DNA of 49,953 nucleotides from Solimicrobium silvestre (GTDB lineage Bacteria; Pseudomonadota; Gammaproteobacteria; Burkholderiales; Burkholderiaceae_D): contig NZ_PUGF01000033.1 in assembly GCF_002976435.1 (NCBI RefSeq), forward strand, positions 1-49,953. Direction: 5' to 3'. The position numbers and the translations under genes were made by a program. A model generated the notes under the pieces. That model searched no databases, was not told where the DNA came from, and saw nothing but the letters and a program-made list of their open reading frames with translations. Of the stretch, positions 274-49,897 are shown one piece after another. How positions within the stretch are numbered: position 1 is the first letter of the stretch; the number at the start of each line of letters is the position of its first letter.

Positions 274-306
274 GGGTGTATTACGCTGTCTACTAATACC
301 TCCTAC
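274..306 (+). repeat. REP hairpin, single arm of the REPIN-like family
   Basis: The sequence runs from TAGGGTGTATTACGC to a CTAC foot and is followed by the family's tail TTATTACAGGC. The last bases of the family spacer (TACGGATTA) precede it, so this is the right half of a REPIN whose left half is missing. It lies just downstream of the WG-repeat gene's stop. Confidence 0.6.
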
Positions 307-325
307 TTATTACAGGCAACACCGG

Positions 326-1726
326 CTATTCACACGTGCAACTAGGTTCTTTTACACAATAGCCTATGCCAGCATCGATATTGGGATCTGGAATATGAAC
401 GATGCCCTTTGTGCATACTGCTTTTTTTGTTGCTGGACATCTTGCTGAACAATAAGTACTACAAAAATCTGTTTTTTCAGCATTGCAAGAGTGTTCCGGC
501 AACGTTGTGTTGGAATAAATAGTTTGGTTTTCTATCCCTTTAATTTCAACTTTAGCTAAACCAAATTCATTGAATTCACCTGCATTATCAAATTGCGGGC
601 TGATGATCGGCGCGCCCATTTTGTTGATATATCCAAATTTTCCATCTAATTGAGCCGGAGCAATGCCATTACTGGAAAAGGAACCTGCGTAAATAAACTG
701 AGCTGAGATCGCAAATTCTCCCTTGGTATTAAGGTATCCCCACAGTCCATTTAATGACACTGGGGCGAGCCCGTCTTTCGAAAAACCACCGGTTGAACCA
801 TATATGGGTTCTATAACAATTTCTCCCATTAAATTCATGAACCCATGTTTTAAATTTTCTCTATCCTGTATTTGAATGAAACCATTGGAATACCCAGCTA
901 AAATATATTTATCCATATTCAAGTATGGAATGAACTTTCCAAGTTGATCTATAAAGCCACAGCTCTCTTTAATGCATGCACGAGCATAATTTCCTGGTAT
1001 CTCTGTACCAAATCCATACGCAGTTGAAAAGTCTGTGGGAATAACGATTTCACCAGATTTATTGATGTAACCCCATTTATCCTCAATTTTTATTGGAGCT
1101 AAGCCATTCAAAGAAAATCTATAAGCCTTATCGAATTTAATTGGAATAACAATAGTTCCTTTTTGATCGATAAATCCCCATTTCCAATTTGATTCCACTA
1201 AAGCGAGGCCATCGTCAAAAAAAACTGTCACATCATGGAATTGAGGTTGGATTACCCATTGTCCGTGTTTGTCAATATAACCCCATTCATCACCCTTCAC
1301 GGCAGCTGCTAGCCCTTGTGATGAAAACTGAACGTGTCTTAAAAATTCCGAGTGATAAAATTTTATTTCAAATTTAGGTTCAATAGCATACGCACCACTC
1401 GAATCTATGTAACCCCAGTAATTTCCAACCTTTACTGCCGCAAGATCGTTGATCGCAAAATCACCTGCATCCTCGAACTTAATTGAAATTACAACCTCAC
1501 CTTTCGTATTAATAAATCCAGCTCTTCCATTTAAATGAACTACAGCCAATCCATTTTTAGAGAATTCTCCAATTTGATCGTAAATTGGTTTTACTACAAG
1601 ATCACCCTTTTCATTAACCAATCCGAATTTTCCTAGCTTCGGCAACCTAGGCGAGATAGCATTCACTGAAGAAATCGTAATAAAAGTTAAAAATATTAAA
1701 ATCGCGAAAAATGATTTTGATTTCAT
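326..1726 (-). CDS. WG-repeat secreted protein with Cys-rich tail
   Basis: The 466-residue protein has an N-terminal signal peptide (hydrophobic residues about 5-23, ending ISSVNA). About nine WG (KWG) repeats follow over residues 30-400, each with a Gly-Leu-Ala-x-Val strand and a W/F-G-[YF]-I-[DN]-x-x-G core. The last 60 residues hold about ten cysteines, which would suit disulphide bonding outside the cytoplasm. WG repeats form beta-rich scaffolds and have no single known activity; many such proteins sit in accessory regions. Three central repeats are degenerate. Codon use is AT-rich, unlike the hut and kyn genes further along. The exported scaffold role is inferred. Confidence 0.75.
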   Translation of the reverse strand: MKSKSFFAILIFLTFITISSVNAISPRLPKLGKFGLVNEKGDLVVKPIYDQIGEFSKNGLAVVHLNGRAGFINTKGEVVISIKFEDAGDFAINDLAAVKVGNYWGYIDSSGAYAIEPKFEIKFYHSEFLRHVQFSSQGLAAAVKGDEWGYIDKHGQWVIQPQFHDVTVFFDDGLALVESNWKWGFIDQKGTIVIPIKFDKAYRFSLNGLAPIKIEDKWGYINKSGEIVIPTDFSTAYGFGTEIPGNYARACIKESCGFIDQLGKFIPYLNMDKYILAGYSNGFIQIQDRENLKHGFMNLMGEIVIEPIYGSTGGFSKDGLAPVSLNGLWGYLNTKGEFAISAQFIYAGSFSSNGIAPAQLDGKFGYINKMGAPIISPQFDNAGEFNEFGLAKVEIKGIENQTIYSNTTLPEHSCNAEKTDFCSTYCSARCPATKKAVCTKGIVHIPDPNIDAGIGYCVKEPSCTCE

Positions 1727-3991: not shown

Positions 3992-4082
3992 TCCTAATCA
4001 CTATTGTTTAAGTCAGCTCGTTGGTCTGACAACTCGTAACCTGTAATCTGAAATGACTTGCAATCTTAGGATGTATTACAGG

Positions 4083-4314
4083 CTACGCTGGCTCTTTGGA
4101 TAATTCCTTATCCGGCATTTTTAGCATCTGCATCAACTTGTCTTGCATCTCGTCAGGTGTAAAAGAAAAGGGGGGATTCCCGCTTAGTTGAAGCTTGATT
4201 CTGGGTATTATTCCCGCTATTTACCGTCGATCCAATTTGATCGTTTTGAGCTATCGCCGCATTAAATGGGACGAATACCATTAGGCATAGCGATGCTAGA
4301 AACATTGATCTCAT
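4083..4314 (-). pseudogene. Small secreted protein, apparently frameshifted
   Basis: From an ATG at 4314 the reverse strand encodes a good signal peptide (MRSMFLASLCLMVFVPFNAA then IAQ). That frame ends at a stop at 4153-4155 after 53 codons. A second frame carries a protein-like continuation, SGNPPFSFTPDEMQDKLMQM, through LKMPDKELSKEPA to a TAG at 4083. A frame change around 4210-4225 would join them. It may be a recent pseudogene, a sequencing error or an intact 53-residue peptide. The last codons lie in the REP-family tail. Confidence 0.4.
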
Positions 4315-4875: not shown

Positions 4876-5102
4876 GAGTATCCTCTGAAAATATAGTGCG
4901 GTTAAAATCTTGAAAATATACAGCTTCGATTTCTCAGTTCTGAAAAATAAAGATCCGCGCAACTGTCTCCTTGCCGTTTTTTGCCGTTCAGATTCTACAT
5001 GACGGTTGTCGTTTGTAAACATGCATGACCAACATGGGTCATTTAAAGATGGGAACCTACGAGCTGATTGCAAGTTATTACAGGTTACAAGTTGGACAAA
5101 TG

Positions 5103-5612: not shown

Positions 5613-5666
5613 CAACTCCAAACCTGCGCATTGCAGCCTTTCATCAAAGAAGCACAGCTCGTATGT
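5613..5666. repeat. 54-bp exact direct repeat, copy 1
   Basis: This segment (CAACTCCAAACCTGCGCATT onward) recurs without a mismatch at 7959-8012. On the reverse strand it can be read as TYELCFFDERLQCAGLEL, followed in this copy by IGVL and a stop, so it may be the displaced 3' end of a gene not present here. Confidence 0.8.
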
Positions 5667-5754
5667 CGTAATAGCAAAACGTATTACACCAATTTCTTAA
5701 TCAACATAATTCGTCGTTACATCACCAACTCGTAATCTGTAATGACTCGCAATC

Positions 5755-5876
5755 GTAGAGTGTATTAGCCAAAGGCGTAATACACCAAACAGTTAATCAA
5801 CTTAAATGCTTCTTAACTATACTTATCGATGATTTTCTGAAAATGGTGCATTACGCCTTTGGCTAATACACCCTAC
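5755..5876. repeat. Complete REPIN-like element, copy 1 (122 bp)
   Basis: Two inverted REP hairpins, 5755-5787 and 5844-5876, each start at a GTAG foot (read inward). Each has a GGTGTATTA(C)GCC-AAA-GGCGTAAT-CACC stem-loop. The arms match over 28 bp with one mismatch and flank a 56-nt spacer beginning AAACAGTTAATC. The GTAG foot next to an imperfect hairpin is the known signature recognised by RAYT transposases. Conserved outer flanks (ACTTGCAATC left, TTATTACAGG right) recur at other copies. Confidence 0.85.
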
Positions 5877-5928
5877 TTATTACAGGTGACGCTGGCTACG
5901 CTTACAGGTTACGCGTTATAGGGATGGA

Positions 5929-5990
5929 GTCTGTGCATGCACAGACCGTTCCACAGGTGAGTTGCATGCAACTCAAAACCCCTGCTACAC
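5929..5990. repeat. Double-palindrome repeat, copy 1
   Basis: It contains a perfect 18-bp palindrome GTCTGTGCATGCACAGAC (5929-5946), then CGTTCCACAGGT, then a 16-bp palindrome GAGTTGCATGCAACTC (5959-5974), then AAAACCCCTGCTACACC. A second copy at 29304-29370 keeps the same frame around different palindromes. Confidence 0.75.
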
Positions 5991-6022
5991 CGTAATACGC
6001 TTCGCAATTAGCGCCCCACTAA
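5991..6022 (-). repeat. REP hairpin, alternative stem type
   Basis: Read on the reverse strand, the sequence GGCGCTAATTGCGAAGCG continues to a TATTACG end. It is the same type as the intact hairpin at 10182-10212 next to the RAYT remnant. The GTAG foot is altered here to GTGG. It ends just before the stop of the 367-residue membrane protein. Confidence 0.6.
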
Positions 6023-6029
6023 GTACAAG

Positions 6030-7133
6030 CTACTTTAGTCTTGCAATAAGTCCATCGAACAAAGAAAACACTGGCTCTACGCCATAGCCAGCCAGGAATG
6101 CGAGGGCAAGGGGTTGCAGGTTGGCCTTGGTTGATAGATCGGTGAATAGTCCAATCACCACACCCATCAGCGCGCCCAAAGCTATACGAACCAGGTTTCG
6201 AACTGGTGAAGTGGTTGTAAATGTTGTGCTCTTAATTTGTTCAGAAGTGAAGCGCAACACATAGGCCAAAGCACCAATGCTTCCTAGGAACACAGGCAAG
6301 AGAAACTGCAGTAAGATGCCAGAAAAAAGGCGAGCGCGGTCTGATGCCAAAGAGGCTAGGGTTGAGGTAATGATAACGTTCTGCTGGGCGGTGTCACATC
6401 TATTGATCCAGTCGCTCAAGTCACCGGACTGCAACGAACCTGATGAATTTTTGAATCTAGGTAGGATTTCGGTCAAGAATTCGCCCGACGCGTACAGCCG
6501 AGTCGACTCAAGATTCAAGGCGTCTATATCGTGAATAATATTGTTATAAGAAGCTGTTTCTCCATCTGTCCATTCGTGCTGCTTGCCATCCTTTCCGAGC
6601 ATCTTGGGAGCAAGCAAATCGCATTTTGCGCGCAAATCTACCGAGGATACCTGAAGTGTCTTCGCCTTCTTATCCAAGTCATCCGAGAGATTGGTATAGA
6701 TCCAAGTAATGAGTTGGAATCCAACAATGATGCCTAAAAGTGCCAAGAGTCCCACTGTATAGCGACGTGAACTTCTCTCCCCCAAAGACTCATTGATTGG
6801 CGCACGCCAAAACCTGATCCGAAACCGCAGTGGAATGTTTCGGTGCTCAGCACTAAGACCATCCACTGTCACAGGCTTAATAAGGGAACACAGGGCGTTG
6901 AAGGCAGACCAAAATTCTTCAGAGGTGGTTGGTGACCACGTCTTCTCAATCTGCGCTTGTCGTGCCTTTGCAATTGCAACTACAAGTGCCTTGTCGAGGT
7001 CCGTGACGTTCTCGGCCGCGAATCGGATCAACGGACCGCTTTGACCCAGCGCCACCTTCTCTGCATCAGAAGGAAGCCCGACCTCGTTCGCTTCCGAAGG
7101 TTTAGTTACGTTTGTCGGTGAGTCAATTTCCAT
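6030..7133 (-). CDS. Hypothetical multi-helix membrane protein with periplasmic domain
   Basis: This 367-residue protein is not recognised. It has a soluble, Ala/Thr-rich N-terminus of about 120 residues and one transmembrane helix near 127-147 (VGLLALLGIIVGFQLITWIY). An extramembrane domain of about 125 residues with a short coiled-coil tendency follows. Three more hydrophobic segments lie near 273-293, 312-330 and 337-355. This looks like an inner-membrane protein with a central domain on one side. It starts at ATG 7133 after AACTTC with a weak ribosome site. Both flanks carry REP copies, so it seems a single-gene unit of the island. Confidence 0.6.
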   Translation of the reverse strand: MEIDSPTNVTKPSEANEVGLPSDAEKVALGQSGPLIRFAAENVTDLDKALVVAIAKARQAQIEKTWSPTTSEEFWSAFNALCSLIKPVTVDGLSAEHRNIPLRFRIRFWRAPINESLGERSSRRYTVGLLALLGIIVGFQLITWIYTNLSDDLDKKAKTLQVSSVDLRAKCDLLAPKMLGKDGKQHEWTDGETASYNNIIHDIDALNLESTRLYASGEFLTEILPRFKNSSGSLQSGDLSDWINRCDTAQQNVIITSTLASLASDRARLFSGILLQFLLPVFLGSIGALAYVLRFTSEQIKSTTFTTTSPVRNLVRIALGALMGVVIGLFTDLSTKANLQPLALAFLAGYGVEPVFSLFDGLIARLK

Positions 7134-7271
7134 TGAAGTTCTCCAGGTTGGTGGCTCTTATGTCCCAAGCAATTATGCATGAACCGCTTCATCAATGGGT
7201 ATACGTTGATAACCGCTGCACGTGCTAGTTTTCCGACCATGGCAGCAGATAGGTCGCGATACGCCTAGCGC

Positions 7272-7372
7272 GTAGGGGGTATTAGCTGACAGCGCAATAC
7301 ACCAAACAGTTAATCTACTTAAATGCTTCTTGACTATATTTATCGATGATTTACAGATTAGGGTGTATTACG
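7272..7372. repeat. REPIN-like element, copy 2, right arm truncated
   Basis: The left REP starts with GTAG at 7272 and reads GGTATTAGCTGACAGCGCAA; the spacer is conserved. The right arm stops after GGTGTATTACG at 7372, where TTTTGAACTGCCCCC begins. The same 15-mer truncates the left arm of the copy at 11665. Confidence 0.75.
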
Positions 7373-7394
7373 TTTTGAACTGCCCCCAAAATTT

Positions 7395-7835
7395 TCAGCC
7401 AGTGCTTTCAGGTTTATCCCGGAAGGTATTCGGGTAATTCTCCCGCAAAAATCGCACTGCGGGATCGAAATTGGTTTGATACCAACCCAATTTCACACAG
7501 GAACCGTCTTCAAACTCAAGCTTTGCGGTCGCCTTATTTGTCATATTTAAGACCAACAAAACATTTTGCAACTGACTGAGTTTAAATTCCCGTTGTCCCA
7601 GCCAGCCAAATACACGTTTTACTATTATGACGCTTTCGTAGACTTCACAGGTCAACGAAAATTGGTATATCCCAGCCAAGCAAAGAAGAAAAGAAACACC
7701 AATTTTTGCAACGCCAACGGAGTGAGCTTCAGGGGAATGTAATCCGTACACAAATAACGCACCACAAAAGACGCACCCAAAGAGGCATAGAGCAAGTGGC
7801 CAAGGAGACCTTAATGTAAAGGAAATACTATTCAT
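7395..7835 (-). CDS. Small membrane protein with a PH-like C-terminal domain
   Basis: The start is taken at ATG 7835 (MNSISFTLRSPW), giving 146 residues; a TTG at 7850 is the alternative. Two hydrophobic helices span about 8-30 and 37-57. A soluble beta-rich domain with the pattern of bacterial PH-like membrane proteins (EVYESVIIVKRVFGW) follows. Such domains sit at the cytosolic face of the membrane and their roles vary. I do not recognise a named family. The gene lies between a truncated REPIN and a hexanucleotide repeat tract. Confidence 0.5.
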   Translation of the reverse strand: MNSISFTLRSPWPLALCLFGCVFCGALFVYGLHSPEAHSVGVAKIGVSFLLCLAGIYQFSLTCEVYESVIIVKRVFGWLGQREFKLSQLQNVLLVLNMTNKATAKLEFEDGSCVKLGWYQTNFDPAVRFLRENYPNTFRDKPESTG

Positions 7836-7890
7836 GTTTGGTAGATGCAATTTAGATTTTTCATTCGCTCACTATATCTTGCTGAATTCG

Positions 7891-7940
7891 GTCTTTGTCT
7901 TTGTCTTTGTCTTTGTCTTTGTCTTTGTCTTTGTCTTTGT
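7891..7940 (+). repeat. Hexanucleotide tandem repeat (GTCTTT), 8.3 copies
   Basis: Fifty bases of perfect GTCTTT repeats lie about 55 nt upstream of the PH-like membrane gene's start. On the reverse strand it reads as alternating Thr-Lys in the frame that continues the 54-bp repeat at 7959. Perfect short tandem repeats such as this change length by slippage. Confidence 0.95.
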
Positions 7941-7958
7941 ATTTTTACTATAGATGAG

Positions 7959-8012
7959 CAACTCCAAACCTGCGCATTGCAGCCTTTCATCAAAGAAGCA
8001 CAGCTCGTATGT
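7959..8012. repeat. 54-bp exact direct repeat, copy 2
   Basis: Identical to 5613-5666. Here it runs straight into a TTGGGCT hairpin at 8009-8039, whereas copy 1 runs into a REP-like stretch, so the repeat ends at the same base before two different palindromes. Confidence 0.85.
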
Positions 8013-8143
8013 TGGGCTGGAGCTTCACCAGCCCAACATTCTTTAATTAATCATGACGATCATTGAATACATACATCGCCAAGTAATTTGGTGTTTTGCG
8101 TTTTTTACTGTTGAGTGTTGGGCTGATGAAGCTCCAGCCCAAC
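8009..8143. repeat. Pair of TTGGGCT/AGCCCAA hairpins
   Basis: Two hairpins share the motif. The first, ATGTTGGGCTGG / CCAGCCCAACAT, spans 8009-8039 with a 7-nt loop. The second, GTTGGGCT / AGCCCAAC, spans 8117-8143. The same family occurs at 21508-21529, 28057-28075, 37281-37309 and 47309-47339, always intergenic. Confidence 0.75.
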
Positions 8144-8175
8144 CTACGAAACTGTAATGTGAATGACTTGCAATC

Positions 8176-8204
8176 GTAGTGTGTATTAGCGTAACACACC
8201 CTAC
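8176..8204. repeat. Minimal REP dimer
   Basis: GTAG and CTAC feet enclose TGTGTATTAGCGTAACACAC with no spacer, so this looks like a REPIN collapsed to its outer hairpin. It is preceded by the family's outer flank ACTTGCAATC and followed by TTATTACAGGC, which here supplies the stop codon of the HD-domain gene. Confidence 0.65.
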
Positions 8205-8207
8205 TTA

Positions 8208-8711
8208 TTACAGGCTACGCGGGCTTAATGACATTGACCTCGCCAATTCAATTAACCGAGGATCTGCTTTAACTAAGACATCCAACAGTAATCGTTTCTC
8301 CTTCAAATAAATCACCGCAAAATTTGGATCGTGCTTCACAATGCTTGAAGTATTACTAATGAGATCAGCGCATTTAATTGTTTGAACCCACGCCTCTGCA
8401 CCGGCAAGTCGTTTTCTTGATGCCTCTTTACGTTCAGCACGATTTCCAGTTTCTAAGTCAGACAACATTTCAACGCCGTATCCAATTTTCTCCCCAAATT
8501 CCTCATAAATAGCAGACAATTTAATACCACAATCCTCAACACAATCATGTAGCCAGGCGGAAGCTATTGCAAAATCTTCTGTCAAAACCGTCGCTGTAAT
8601 TCCAGCCACTTCAGCGAGATGATCGACATAAGGATTACCTGAATATTTCCGAACATGATCTTTATGCGCTTCTCTCGCAAACAACAGCGCTTTAAATGCT
8701 ACGTCACCCAT
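8208..8711 (-). CDS. HD-domain phosphohydrolase (RelA/SpoT-hydrolase-like)
   Basis: This 167-residue cytosolic protein resembles the hydrolase domain of SpoT and small alarmone hydrolases. The markers are an early helix with ARxAHxDHVRKYSG-PYxDHL (H about 16 and 31), then WLHDCVED (the HD pair near 53) and a later QTIKCADLISNT helix with an Asp ligand. Metal-dependent phosphohydrolysis of a (pp)pGpp-like nucleotide is inferred from the family. The last six codons and the TAA stop lie inside the REP-family tail, which suggests that repeat insertion changed the original C-terminus. Confidence 0.7.
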   Translation of the reverse strand: MGDVAFKALLFAREAHKDHVRKYSGNPYVDHLAEVAGITATVLTEDFAIASAWLHDCVEDCGIKLSAIYEEFGEKIGYGVEMLSDLETGNRAERKEASRKRLAGAEAWVQTIKCADLISNTSSIVKHDPNFAVIYLKEKRLLLDVLVKADPRLIELARSMSLSPRSL

Positions 8712-8816
8712 GATATTTCCTAGAAAAACTATTTAATTGAATTCGATTGTTCGTTTGGTTTGCCTGCAGCCATTGAGCGAGCACTGGTCACTCGTAACCT
8801 GTAATGACTTGCAATC

Positions 8817-8835
8817 GTAGCGTGTATTAGCGTAA
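8817..8835 (+). repeat. REP half-arm at the 3' end of the phosphatase-like gene
   Basis: A GTAG foot followed by CGTGTATTAGCG matches the left arm of the REPIN family, preceded by the outer flank CTCGTAACCTGTAATGACTT. The following gene's stop codon (TAA at 8827-8829) lies inside this arm. Confidence 0.55.
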
Positions 8836-9150
8836 AAATTTACCTGCCTTAGCTTCAAGGAGCCTAATTAACTCAGGTTGCATAAACTCATATTCATCAG
8901 GTATTTCCAAACAAATTACACGCTTGCCATTGAGATGGGATTTGAATTTAGCGGACAGCTTATTCCTATGAGTCTTCTCCATCACAAATATTATATCTGC
9001 CCAAGCCAACTGCTCGGGTGAAAGCGAAACGTTGGCATCATTACCGAGGCCAGCTGAATCAGTCTCAACATTCGGCCATGAAGAAAAAATTTGTTCAGCC
9101 GTTGGACTACGTAACCTGTTTTGAGTGCAAATGAATAATGCGCGTTTCAA
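8827..9150 (-). CDS. Low-molecular-weight protein-tyrosine-phosphatase-like protein
   Basis: The 107-residue protein has a P-loop-like start, CTQNRLRSPT (residues 8-17), which keeps the C-x5-R-S active-site pattern of low-molecular-weight phosphatases and arsenate reductases. A late PDEY segment would be the general-acid loop. It is shorter than classical enzymes (about 150), matching a compact bacterial subfamily of unknown substrate. The start is a TTG at 9150 because no in-frame ATG precedes the active site. The C-terminus (KFLR) and stop fall within a REP arm. Catalysis is plausible because Cys, Arg and Asp are all kept. Confidence 0.7.
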   Translation of the reverse strand: MKRALFICTQNRLRSPTAEQIFSSWPNVETDSAGLGNDANVSLSPEQLAWADIIFVMEKTHRNKLSAKFKSHLNGKRVICLEIPDEYEFMQPELIRLLEAKAGKFLR

Positions 9151-9309
9151 TTTATTCTGCCTTATTGTTGTTAAAGATTAAATGTTATTTTTGACTGCAA
9201 AGGACCACTACTTGACTTTCAAATGCCCACGACGAATTGCTCTGTTCCGTAATTCAACGACCCATGGGTTACTAAACTCGTAACCTGTAATGTGAAATGA
9301 CTTGCAATC

Positions 9310-9431
9310 GTAGAATGTATTAGCGGAAAACGCAGTACACCAAACAGTTAATCAACTTAAATGCTTCTTCAATATATTTATCGATGATTTACGGATTATG
9401 GCGTATTACGCTTTCCGCCAATACACCCTAC
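9310..9431. repeat. Complete REPIN-like element, copy 3 (122 bp)
   Basis: It has the same length and spacer as copy 1, with GTAG at 9310 and CTAC ending at 9431. The arms read TGTATTAGCGGAAAACGC and, inverted, TGTATTGGCGGAAAGCGT, so the inner stem differs from copy 1 (AGCCAAAGGC) while the two arms still match each other. Confidence 0.85.
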
Positions 9432-9487
9432 TTCCTACAGGCTACGCTGGCTTCTACATTGCGGCCATTCAATTTAAGAAAACCAGA

Positions 9488-9940
9488 CTAAATATTGGAT
9501 GAATCAATTAAATTCTGATTCAGTTCTGCATATTGATTGAGTAAAAACCAAACGGATTCGCTTCCCAACATCTGTTCACTTATTTTTGAAAATTGATGAG
9601 AAAAATCCGATGGTAATGAATCTATAAATTTCAGTCTAGATTCTAAATTCAACTCAGGATTTGGATCTTCAAAAAAGGCTAATGATTTTTTAATGCCTTC
9701 AGCTTCTTCAAACGCGCCGATTTTATTATATGCATCGATAAACATTTGATATGGGGGATTTTCAGGGAAATCGCTTGAGAAAAAATATTCTAAACCACCA
9801 TTATCGATAATTCCTTGTGCTGAATATACGATTGCGATGGTTTGCAGCGGGTCTTTCATGAGTTGAATATTGCCACCGGCTTTATCAAGTTTAGCAAAAG
9901 ATATTTTTGAAGCCGATTCGAGAAAGTCAAAAGATTTCAT
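9488..9940 (-). CDS. DUF4375 (DMP19-like) protein
   Basis: This 150-residue acidic cytosolic protein fits the DMP19/DUF4375 family, which includes phage-type DNA mimics and toxin-immunity-type proteins. Characteristic parts are the segment SAQGIIDNGGLEYFF near residues 41-55 (the family's xxxxNGGFxQFF motif) and an alternating helical region to the end. ATG 9940 is the start. It is a lone gene flanked by REP copies. An immunity role is an inference from the family and from the nearby toxin fragment, not visible directly. Confidence 0.65.
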   Translation of the reverse strand: MKSFDFLESASKISFAKLDKAGGNIQLMKDPLQTIAIVYSAQGIIDNGGLEYFFSSDFPENPPYQMFIDAYNKIGAFEEAEGIKKSLAFFEDPNPELNLESRLKFIDSLPSDFSHQFSKISEQMLGSESVWFLLNQYAELNQNLIDSSNI

Positions 9941-10015
9941 AATTTAATTTATTTGTGAATGGCTGATATATTTATCCGACAGCACTTTCCGCTAATACAC
10001 CCTGCTTATTACAGG

Positions 10016-10159
10016 CTACGCGGGCTTAATCACCCATCTAACGGTGTCTCGCAAAAAATCGATATGCCGCACTAGTAAATCATTATCTTTACGCTGCAAT
10101 AAGTTCACCGCAAAAAAATAGGTGTCCCCTTTATGCCATGCGCGACGGTAATTCGACAT
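10016..10159 (-). pseudogene. RAYT (REP-associated tyrosine transposase), 5' remnant
   Basis: From an ATG at 10159 the reverse strand encodes 47 residues beginning MSNYRRAWHKGDTYFFAVNL and then LLQRKDNDLLVRHIDFLRDT. This is the N-terminus of RAYT (Y1_Tnp, TnpA-REP) proteins, which catalyse REP movement through an HUH-type Tyr nuclease. The frame ends at a TAG formed by the REP tail (AGCCCGCGTAG), so the HUH and Tyr motifs and over 100 residues are missing. An intact GTAG-type REP lies 23 nt upstream of its start, the typical RAYT context. Confidence 0.8.
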
Positions 10160-10181
10160 CGGTTGTTTTACCTTTCCATGC

Positions 10182-10212
10182 GGCGTAATACGCTTCGCTA
10201 TTAGCGCCCTAC
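10182..10212 (-). repeat. REP hairpin upstream of the RAYT remnant
   Basis: The reverse strand reads GTAGGGCGCTAATAGCGAAG then CGTATTACGCC: a GTAG foot plus an imperfect hairpin with a bulge and a GAAG loop. RAYT genes are typically flanked by their cognate REPs, so this stem is probably the founder type for the island. Confidence 0.75.
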
Positions 10213-10373
10213 TAAGTACAAGCTACTCGGACTACATATTACGGGCTACGCTGGCTGTAATGTGAAAAGACTTGCAATCGTAGGCTATGCTGGCTACAGG
10301 TTACGAGTTGCGAAAAATGAGGCAGTTCTGCACGATGCACAGGGCAGCAGCAGTGAATGCAATTGGTCAAATA

Positions 10374-11577: not shown

Positions 11578-11648
11578 GTATCTATGGACTCCACCCGTTT
11601 TGCAAGAAGAATTTGATTTCAACCAGTAGGTAAGTTTGCGTGCATCTA
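11578..11648 (+). repeat. 71-bp direct repeat, copy 1
   Basis: GTATCTATGGACTCCACCCG onward matches 49827-49897 with two mismatches, in the same orientation 38 kb away. On the plus strand copy 2 reads as the end of a protein (YLWTPPVLQEEFDFNQ, stop). In copy 1 only this last part is present, abutting the truncated toxin ORF. Confidence 0.85.
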
Positions 11649-11664: not shown

Positions 11665-11766
11665 TGAACTGCCCCCAAACAGTTAATCAACTTAAATGCT
11701 TCTTAACTATACTTATCGATGATTTTCTGAAAATGGTGCATTACGCCTTTGGCTAATACACCCTAT
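11665..11766. repeat. REPIN-like element, copy 4, left arm replaced
   Basis: TGAACTGCCCCCAAA (11665-11679) replaces the left REP. The conserved spacer follows, then the right REP at 11734-11766, which is identical in its stem to copy 1 but ends CCCTAT instead of CCCTAC. Confidence 0.75.
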
Positions 11767-11816
11767 TTTTTACAGGCGACGCCGGCTACGATTACAGGTT
11801 ACGCATTAGATGTTTA

Positions 11817-12443: not shown

Positions 12444-12475
12444 TTGTTTTACCTTCCCATGCGTCGCAATACGCT
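12444..12475 (-). repeat. Second copy of the RAYT leader
   Basis: The sequence TTGTTTTACCTTCCCATGCG and the following CGCAATACGCT match 10163-10194, the leader and REP upstream of the RAYT remnant, with a few changes. No RAYT coding sequence follows here, so only the leader remains. Confidence 0.6.
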
Positions 12476-12494
12476 GCTCTTTATAGGAATCTCT

Positions 12495-21557: not shown

Positions 21558-21613
21558 GAAACCCTGGCTACACCACAAAACCGTGCCCACCCTACAAATC
21601 TACCGTGTCGCTG

Positions 21614-21850
21614 CTGTTGCTTTTGAATTTGCCGTTGCTTTTGACCTACCCCCACTTCTAGTTCGGCCGGTTATTTTACGAATAAATGGATCAGAAAGGT
21701 TCGCTGTTTGAGCCGCAGGCGAGTTTCGAACTTTTCCCATTTATTCGTAAAATAATCGGGGTTTCCGAAATAGCGTGGTCGCCTTTTTGGGCCTACCTTT
21801 TTTGGCGACGCAAAAAAGGTAGGTAGCTGTCGGGCTACCCCCGACCAACT
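21614..21850. repeat. Long hairpin repeat, copy A
   Basis: This holds the shared sequence GACCTACCCCCACTTCTAGT, then a 23-nt arm (21667-21689) and its inverse (21737-21759; arms differ by one G/A) around a loop of about 47 nt. Next is a conserved TTTCCGAAATAGCGTGGTCG segment and a 12-bp CCTACCTTTTTT / AAAAAAGGTAGG hairpin (21792-21823). Copies B (28871-29120) and C (29386-29571, inverted) share the frame. It occupies most of the hutU-hutH gap. Confidence 0.85.
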
Positions 21851-21891
21851 AAACTCAATAAAAACAACAGACAGTAAAATCGATCCAATCC

Positions 21892-28870: not shown

Positions 28871-29120
28871 GACGTTGCTTTTGACGTTGCTTTTGACGTT
28901 GCTTTTGACGTTGCTTTTGACGTTGCTTTTGACCTACCCCCACTTCTAGTTCGGCCGGTTATTTTACGGATAAATGGATCAGAAAGGTTCGCTGTTTGAG
29001 CGCAGCGAGTTTCGAACTTTTCCCATTTATTCGTAAAATAATCGGGGTTTCCGAAATAGCGTGGTCGCCTTTTTTGGCCTACCTTTTTTGGCGACGCAAA
29101 AAAGGCAGGTAGCTGCCGGT
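28871..29120. repeat. Long hairpin repeat, copy B, with 12-bp tandem repeats
   Basis: Five perfect copies of GACGTTGCTTTT (28871-28930) lead into the same GACCTACCCCCACTTCTAGT start as copy A. The arms are 28955-28977 and 29023-29045, nearly the same as copy A. A trailing 12-bp hairpin, one arm with a T-to-C change, follows. An ORF called over this stretch (28825-29127) is a translation of the repeat. Confidence 0.85.
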
Positions 29121-29303
29121 CTACCACCGGCCTACTGAACTAAAATCAACTTCCAAAGCAATTCAAAAACTAACCTTATATCAACCGATTTTGACTTATT
29201 TCCAAAGTTCAAGATGATGTTGCGCAGGCTTAAATTAATCAGCCAAGATGACAAATTTAAGGCTTGGGGCCGGTGGTAGACCCTGTATCCCTATAGGGAG
29301 GGA

Positions 29304-29370
29304 GTCTCCGCCTGCATGCGGAGACCGTTCCGCAGGTGAGTGGCATGCCACTCAAAACCCCTGCTACACC
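29304..29370. repeat. Double-palindrome repeat, copy 2
   Basis: A GTCTCCGC-CTGCAT-GCGGAGAC hairpin (29304-29325) and the palindrome GAGTGGCATGCCACTC (29338-29353) lie in the same flanks as copy 1 (CCGTTCCGCAGGT; AAAACCCCTGCTACACCGG). Both palindromes differ in sequence from copy 1 and stay self-complementary. Confidence 0.75.
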
Positions 29371-29385
29371 GGCAACTACTCACTT

Positions 29386-29571
29386 TTTTTCTCGCCAAAA
29401 AAAGTAAGCAAAAAAAGGCGACCACGCTATTTCGGAAACCCCGATTTTTCTAAGGAAAAAAGGGAAAAGTTCGAAACTCGCTGCGCTCAGACAACGAACC
29501 TTTCTGATCCTTTTTCCCTTAGAAAAACCGGCCGAACTAGAAGTGGAGGTAGGTCAAAGTCAACAACAACG
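29386..29571. repeat. Long hairpin repeat, copy C (inverted)
   Basis: Read on the reverse strand it matches copies A and B: start ACCTCCACTTCTAGTTCGGC, loop with CTTTCTGATC changed in order, and the CGAAATAGCGTGGTCGCC tail. The arms (29441-29463 and 29509-29531) read CCGATTTTTCTAAGG and its inverse, unlike the TTATTTTACG arms of A and B, but remain complementary apart from two G/A positions that pair as G-U. Confidence 0.85.
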
Positions 29572-29850
29572 TCAAAACCAACTTCAACAGCAACACAACC
29601 AAATTTCAATCAGCATCGCCAATTTCCCCTTACTCTCCACAACAACATTTCCATCCAGTTATATCTATTTAACTAGTCAGACCATCCACTGATATTTTTT
29701 TATAATTACTAAAGCACTACTTTTAATGCTATTCCCAACACTCCTCAGGATTTATTAGATTTCTCTTTTTTTATCACCTAAGATACTTTTTCGCTATTTA
29801 TCATTTGCGAAAAACAAAACTCGATAAAAATCCATTCCGGGGAGCTTTAA
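29572..29850. other. Intergenic, S53 gene promoter region
   Basis: AT-rich sequence with no ORF supported; GGGGAG (29839-29844) is the ribosome site of the next gene. The S53 gene's promoter should be here, but no single -35/-10 pair stands out. Confidence 0.4.
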
Positions 29851-49728: not shown

Positions 49729-49878
49729 ATCTTACGCCGTATTTTGGCGAACGCTGGATTTTGTTTCGAAGGGGATGTCCAAGTTCCAGCTCGTGGAAGC
49801 CAGCATGATCTTCCTGACATAACGCGGTATCTATGGACTCCACCCGTTTTGCAAGAAGAATTTGATTTCAACCAGTAG
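49729..49878 (+). pseudogene. 3' gene fragment ending in the 71-bp repeat
   Basis: The plus strand reads RRILANAGFCFEGDVQVPAR then GSQHDLPDITRYLWTPPVLQ and ends EEFDFNQ with a stop at 49876-49878. It has protein-like composition but no start, because the upstream sequence is the promoter of the VOC gene. The family is not recognised. The last 17 codons are also at 11578-11628, attached to different DNA. Confidence 0.45.
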
Positions 49879-49897
49879 GTAAGCTTGCGTGTATCTA
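49827..49897 (+). repeat. 71-bp direct repeat, copy 2
   Basis: Matches 11578-11648 with changes at 49885 (C for T) and 49892 (T for C). It contains the end of the gene fragment and 19 nt past its stop, which suggests that the duplication includes the 3' non-coding flank. Confidence 0.85.

Follow-up and report, generated by a model that had tools for sequence, protein, structure and literature searches.

The window analysed here is a stretch of 49,953 nt from Solimicrobium silvestre (contig NZ_PUGF01000033.1, C32 in our numbering), the draft genome assembly of which comprises 5.24 Mb and is 99% complete. From 4.3 to 12.8 kb the window carries small genes on the minus strand and, among them, units mostly in one orientation and often just past stop codons, in which two inverted repetitive extragenic palindromic (REP) hairpins flank a conserved spacer (REP doublets forming hairpins, REPINs). 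Two pieces of REP-associated tyrosine transposase (RAYT) genes lie in the same region. The elements are probably non-autonomous internal-deletion derivatives of RAYT transposons, the ends of which lie outside the GTAG-hairpin arms.

REPIN units and RAYT copies

Two complete 122-bp units were found in the window, both on the plus strand. The arms of copy 1 (5755-5876) are 33 nt long and 94% complementary (5755-5787 and 5844-5876) and are separated by a 56-nt spacer (5788-5843). Copy 3 (9310-9431) is likewise built of 33-nt inverted arms (9310-9342 and 9399-9431) with 56 nt between them. In both copies the hairpins are inverted with their feet outside, and GTAG (GTRG in the general definition of a REPIN) stands 5' of each hairpin. 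When folded with their outer flanks, copies 1 and 3 were each more stable than all of 200 shuffled sequences (z -9.9 and -4.5, respectively). Two other copies, starting at 7272 and 11675, have kept the spacer and lost one arm each. Copy 2 (7272-7376, plus strand) has a single foot without a ladder, and its second arm is cut at a GAACTGCCCCC motif; copy 4 (11675-11787, plus strand), the foot of which has degenerated to ATAG, lacks the L-side arm and retains the S end (L and S ends are defined below). The GAACTGCCCCC motif, which resembles an insertion-sequence end, marks the sites at which three REP arms are broken off (7377, 11666 and, on contig C7, L173:6568).

A BLAST search of the own genome with the 172-bp unit gave 24 rows, and the spacer was present in seven places: four in the window, C12:146303, C1:244045 and, in part, C3:141972 (an eighth row, on C7, was weak at E 0.78 and was excluded). 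The REPIN layout described in the sequence-only reading was borne out. In 59 genomes (the own genome and 58 relatives), matches to the unit came, besides those in the own genome, from two congeners: one full unit with a CTAG foot in its left arm in G004, and arms only in G002. A covariance model of the arm (E <=0.01; 150 candidates scored per genome; 18 training rows, two of them slightly mistyped) gave 25 matches in the own genome (21 listed), two in G004, 133 in G002 and none in G001 or G003. At least four of the 25 (C7 twice, C43 and C45) represent another repeat with constant flanks of its own; the population is small in comparison with that of G002 and does not reach the high copy number typical of REPINs. 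In this other small family (L238-L241), AAGGTGTAAT or a one-base variant precedes the foot, and a constant tail lies beside a terminator-like stretch. The REPs of G002 that were examined had plain feet and formed a large REPIN population; in a few of them (L183, L185 and L200) the foot was doubled, with a GTAGGGTGTATTAG-like sequence repeated within 16-18 nt. No Rfam family matched the window at gathering scores.

The 47-codon frame at 10019-10159 (minus strand) proved to be a genuine N-terminal RAYT remnant without the HUH/Tyr part, as had been proposed. Its residues 1-46 are 85% identical to an intact RAYT on contig C33, although Pfam alone recognized no family in it. The C33 gene has 177 codons and keeps H60-L-H62 and Tyr129; it matched the solved structure of E. 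coli TnpAREP (4er8) with E 2e-53, the HUH pair and the tyrosine being aligned, which identifies it as a RAYT. It has a related REP upstream and is a candidate partner of the arms in the window. The alternative that had been offered, an active RAYT elsewhere or a dying family, was answered in part: an intact gene, which may be active, exists, its own L end is gone, and the family has few members. In addition to this gene, the own genome holds five pieces of the family, two in the window and one each on C12 (residues 123-176), C7 (136-176) and C4 (154-176), the last three being 61-67% identical to C33. The second window piece (5697-5726, minus strand) is a C-terminal scrap with the stop codon and a 3' REP at about 5664-5691; it was detected by DNA only (5655-5727, 87.7% identity to the RAYT end on C12) and was missed by tblastn with the C33 protein. 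Another intact RAYT, on contig C27, is distinct (59%) and is accompanied by a different REP. In a family survey, 64 of 195 genomes (own included) matched the C33 RAYT at E <=1e-10. In a scan of genome contigs, the best RAYT hits were at 72%, with names including Gallionella, Undibacterium and Nitrosospira, which are beta-proteobacteria.

Outer ends shared by REPINs and RAYT copies

The conserved sequence does not stop at or near the GTAG foot as in other REPINs; it extends about 20-39 nt beyond it and defines the junctions. These outer flanks, pointed out already from the sequence of the window, were found on several contigs in two forms, an S end (AGCCCGC-GTAG-CCTGTAATAA-GTAG) and an L end (AACTC-GTAA-CCTGTAAT...CTTGCAATC-GTAG). 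The outer core CGTARCCTGTAAT occurs in 16 exact copies in 5.24 Mb and at 39 sites with <=1 mismatch, against 16 sites for the same pattern read backwards. Profiles of the two ends were run within the genus (five genomes, E <=0.1), both having been trained on copies from the searched genomes. The S profile gave 19 matches in the own genome and one in G004; with the L profile, all 16 matches were in the own genome and the four congeners had none, the weakest matches of either profile being marginal; the G004 unit has a degenerate L end that was found by pattern. Within the genus, S and L were found in the own genome and, outside it, in a single unit of one congener. They stand around REPINs (the 122-bp form and two others), RAYT copies, short inner sequences lacking a REP, and collapsed units.

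In both ends, GTA motifs often follow one another at seven-base intervals. When it is read as GTAGCCT-GTAATAA-GTAGGGT-GTATTAG, the S end extends a GTA spacing that the REP itself has. The left end of the window RAYT (10160-10256, minus strand), which comprises the leader (10163-10181), a REP (10181-10212) and the S boundary at 10256, carries four extra GTAR feet, and the left end at C3:142617 carries two. Four step-7 pairs were counted in the former (one of 20,000 dinucleotide shuffles as good) and three each in C3:142617 (8 of 20,000) and the S consensus (13 of 20,000); the L consensus has two (39 of 20,000 and, at any step, 1459 of 5000). The seven-base step was tested after the pattern had been noticed, and when any step from 4 to 15 was allowed, 47 to 86 of 5000 shuffles were as good for the first three of these sequences. 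The S end of C33 has no step-7 pair and keeps a 14-nt step alone. RAYT arms of other genomes exhibited no clear seven-base step, offsets 9 and 14 being equally and slightly raised (5 of 140 arms each). Among 140 RAYT-flanking arms, 13 (12 of 99 loci) have AGCCCGC immediately in front of the foot; of the other GTAGs there, 5 of 1868 have it. Two RAYTs of Gallionellaceae/Gallionellales (L038 and L039) have a similar start, ACCCGC-GTAA-N10-GTAG.

Three observations connect these ends with the RAYT unit. The S end stands directly before the REP and leader of both the C33 RAYT and the window remnant, and on C4 a full L end, without the consensus AGGTTAC stretch, directly follows the RAYT stop codon and REP. 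On C12, a 223-nt unit consists of a weak S-type end with half a REP, RAYT residues 123-176 and a simpler end, REP-TTAC-GAGTT; by its sequence, this is a half-deleted RAYT unit. Both full ends together were not seen at any RAYT copy. Termini in common with RAYT copies are what is expected of miniature inverted-repeat transposable elements (MITEs), and the outer flanks are best read as the ends of the mobile unit.

Three junctions in the window coincide with such ends. The collapsed L-S unit at 4031-4093 (plus strand) breaks a sequence that is continuous on C12: the homologous block (964 bp, 94.6%) starts at 4092, at the outer S end (4093). The L end of copy 1 (5727-5758, plus strand) abuts the C-terminal RAYT scrap, and the homology to the RAYT C-terminus on C12 (73-bp block, 87.7%) stops at 5727. 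At the S end at 9998-10026 (minus strand), the protein match of the N-terminal remnant to C33 ends with residue 46 (10022), although at the DNA level the block fades already at 10047, with little similarity in the last bases. The remnant had been regarded as a decayed RAYT; it is real, and simple decay does not describe it, since the match breaks off at the start of an S end that belongs to another family member. All three junctions are one-sided, the paralogous sequence not continuing beyond the unit, which fits insertion followed by deletion or by recombination between units. The two RAYT pieces, on the same strand and correctly ordered, mark the two edges of the 4.3-kb stretch from 5.7 to 10.0 kb, and if both came from one copy, the genes between them may sit inside a split RAYT.

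Inner sequences were also compared with the RAYT gene. With <=2 mismatches, the RAYT leader GCATGGRAARGTAAAACAA was found at seven sites, of which two lie at RAYTs and the remaining five within REPINs or REP fragments; with <=3 mismatches there were 14 sites (control with the pattern read backwards, two). In the type-3 REPINs on C3 the leader lies beside the S-side arm. Equally far from the arm, the spacer of the 122-bp unit shares TTATGTTGATTAA (12 of 13 nt) with the RAYT 3' end on C12 and with the window scrap. Depending on target and length, a match as good was obtained with 61 to 1014 of 100,000 shuffles. This weak resemblance is supportive and not a proof. Internal sequence from a RAYT parent is thus clear for the type-3 leader and amounts to 13 nt only in the 122-bp type.

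Origin of the units and competing explanations

A derivation of the REPINs from RAYT units is suggested by the shared S and L ends, the half-deleted unit on C12 and the leader in one REPIN type. The parent would have had the order S end, REP, RAYT gene, inverted REP and L end, and the REPINs would have retained the ends and arms and lost the gene, the individual types keeping different scraps of it. The transposase probably bound the GTAG hairpins on single-stranded DNA and cut close to the S and L boundaries, outside the hairpins; it may have moved the units in trans, by analogy with E. coli TnpAREP, which cuts in vitro. The extra GTA motifs would most likely stem from a short duplication or from re-use of the REP foot (GTAG-GGT-GTATTAG). 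In the island, units appear to have inserted beside genes and into the RAYT itself, with subsequent deletions and recombination between units. A more far-reaching version, which we put forward tentatively and hold to be rather doubtful, is that the RAYTs of this lineage were true autonomous transposons with termini beyond the arms, which moved whole and were split by their own offspring, that the units gathered small host genes and shuffled them into the island between the N- and C-terminal RAYT pieces, and that tandem foot motifs with a step of about 7 nt grew at the ends.

Several results weigh against this derivation. The C-terminal pieces on C12, C7 and C4 and the window scrap have a common C-terminus (GDV..xYVD) unlike that of C33 and therefore belong to a sister lineage; no intact member of this lineage was detected. 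This split slightly lowered our confidence and slightly raised the probability of the nested-repeat explanation discussed below. The C12 unit has only a weak S at its left end, and the C33 RAYT lacks its own L end. The joined flanks of six other units, searched in five genomes of the genus, revealed no two-sided empty site; outside the own genome this search gave one one-sided match and two short ones, none of them crossing a junction. The two type-3 REPINs on C3 have similar flanks and may go back to one event. Unanchored matches of the spacer were equalled by 55 to 341 of 5000 shuffles, its 3' match to C33 is poor (8/20, 10/24 and 12/28, figures without a shuffle control), and its 5' half did not match the RAYT leader significantly (3964 and 3349 of 5000 shuffles as good). 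Finally, S and L enclose short inner sequences without a REP at C2:202879 and C3:130380, and the spacer is inverted relative to L and S in C1 and G004.

The last two points speak for a different origin, in which L and S formed an older independent palindrome into which ordinary REPINs and RAYTs were inserted. We consider this the most serious rival, with a probability of about one in four. The variety of inner sequences, which also include the type-2 REPINs (C30 and C18) and a long hairpin on C4 in addition to the 122-bp REPIN, agrees with it, and GTAG dimers inside outer palindromes are described for Anabaena variabilis in PMC3733652. It accounts less well for the polarity at the readable RAYT ends, few as they are, where S is always 5' (C33, the window and, weakly, C12) and L 3' (C4 and, in the simple form, C12). 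Moreover, the L/S core has the GTA spacing of the REP itself, the collapsed units fit, by eye, deletions of L-REPIN-S at TATTA microhomologies, and AGCCCGC precedes RAYT feet in other genera too. Two further explanations are very improbable. The gene arrangement described at the outset, together with 2 of 15 compared window genes that have close paralogs in an island on C12, recalls an integron-like cassette array in which L-REPIN-S units would be integrase recombination sites after each small gene. No integrase exceeded the cut-off (best 80 of 265 bits, a signal below the cut-off that appeared in all 14 controls as well), visual inspection of the ends showed no attC-type core, and REPs after stop codons are common according to PMC3733652; for want of an IntI integrase this candidate was rejected. 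It is equally improbable that the flanks were conserved only by hitch-hiking of plain REPIN remnants in segmental duplications inside the island. Copies 1 and 4 do match past the S end (95.5% over 134 bp), and gene blocks are common to two islands; nevertheless, C2, C3, C4, C12, C18, C30, C33, G004 and, in a degenerate state, C1 all have L or S, and the sequence beyond the boundary differs among them; these dispersed copies already contradict such an origin.

Further units of the island and relation to known systems

Members of the family also lie beyond 5755-10212, the segment considered originally. They are a REP arm (274-306) with an S end (301-327; together 274-327, minus strand), a solo L-type end at 5057-5092 (minus strand) and a fragment with half a REP and the RAYT leader at 12444-12480 (minus strand), besides the units at 4031 and 11675 described above. 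Copy 1 is followed by its S end (5869-5897, minus strand) and an additional GTAA-CCTGTAA-type foot outside it (5898-5918, minus strand), which copy 4 has as well. A REP fragment of the RAYT-left-arm type with an extra foot lies at 5991-6034 (minus strand). On the plus strand, an L end, a collapsed single hairpin (recognized by eye) and an S end occupy 8145-8225, an L end with the start of a REP is cut off at a phosphatase-like gene (8788-8831), and copy 3 is part of a full unit (9275-9452) with L at 9275-9313 and S at 9424-9452. The neighbouring genes include members of the GFA, DUF2867, HD, LMWP and DMP19 families; the two with close paralogs on C12 are the phosphatase-like gene (88% DNA identity) and the DUF2867 gene region (94.6%).

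A different REPIN-like unit at 8005-8149 has 37-nt arms (GTTGGGCTG...CAGCCCAAC) around 71 nt and copies on C12 at about 95% identity (L164 9878-10011 and 12265-12377); by eye, its feet resemble the REP beside the distinct C27 RAYT. Other repeats in the window are a TTTGTC tandem stretch (7895-7940), a 71-bp direct repeat, 97% identical, with its copies 38 kb apart (11578-11648 and 49827-49897), and long direct and inverted repeats, 83-94% alike, at 21606-21858 and 28893-29593 with TTTTGACGTTGC tandem units nearby.

The units share two inverted GTAG-foot hairpins, a conserved spacer and an E. coli-type RAYT in the genome with the REPINs mobilised by RAYT/TnpAREP, as these are presented by Bertels and Rainey (2011, PMC3116915) and in PMC8266576. 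They differ from them in ends that reach about 20-39 nt past the foot, in spacers with a RAYT leader or 3' scrap and in low copy number. According to PMC3116915 and PMC6006769, REPINs are thought to be derived from REPs flanking an ancestral IS200-like element, and REPtrons are said not to move as a unit. As in a REPtron, the RAYT lies here between inverted REP arms, whereas the intact RAYT and the five pieces, which represent two or more sister lineages, occur in different contexts with related ends. The flanks had been called unexplained by known models. They can be read as RAYT unit ends, and comparable outer palindromes enclosing GTAG dimers have been published: PMC3733652 describes REP dimers within a further palindrome, and also P. 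putida terminal inverted repeats made up of degenerate GTAG-1 units. In contrast to those, the outer palindrome found here also occurs at RAYT copies, differs between its two sides (L and S) and frequently has GTA motifs at seven-base intervals. The collapsed hairpin at 8176-8204, with GTAG and CTAC at its ends, is similar to the "double foot" REPs in PMC6006769, whereas the laddered feet stand in tandem on one side of a hairpin. Neither laddered feet nor RAYT deletion intermediates appeared in titles or abstract openings of the REPIN, RAYT, TnpAREP, REPtron and MITE literature, a scope outside which most subscription journals lie, so that a precedent in print is possible.

One genome thus holds an apparent series from an intact RAYT gene through a half-deleted RAYT and REPINs bearing scraps or the leader to collapsed ends. 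The concrete end sequences outside the hairpin are the places where cleavage may be sought, and with them the origin and the boundaries of REPINs become testable.

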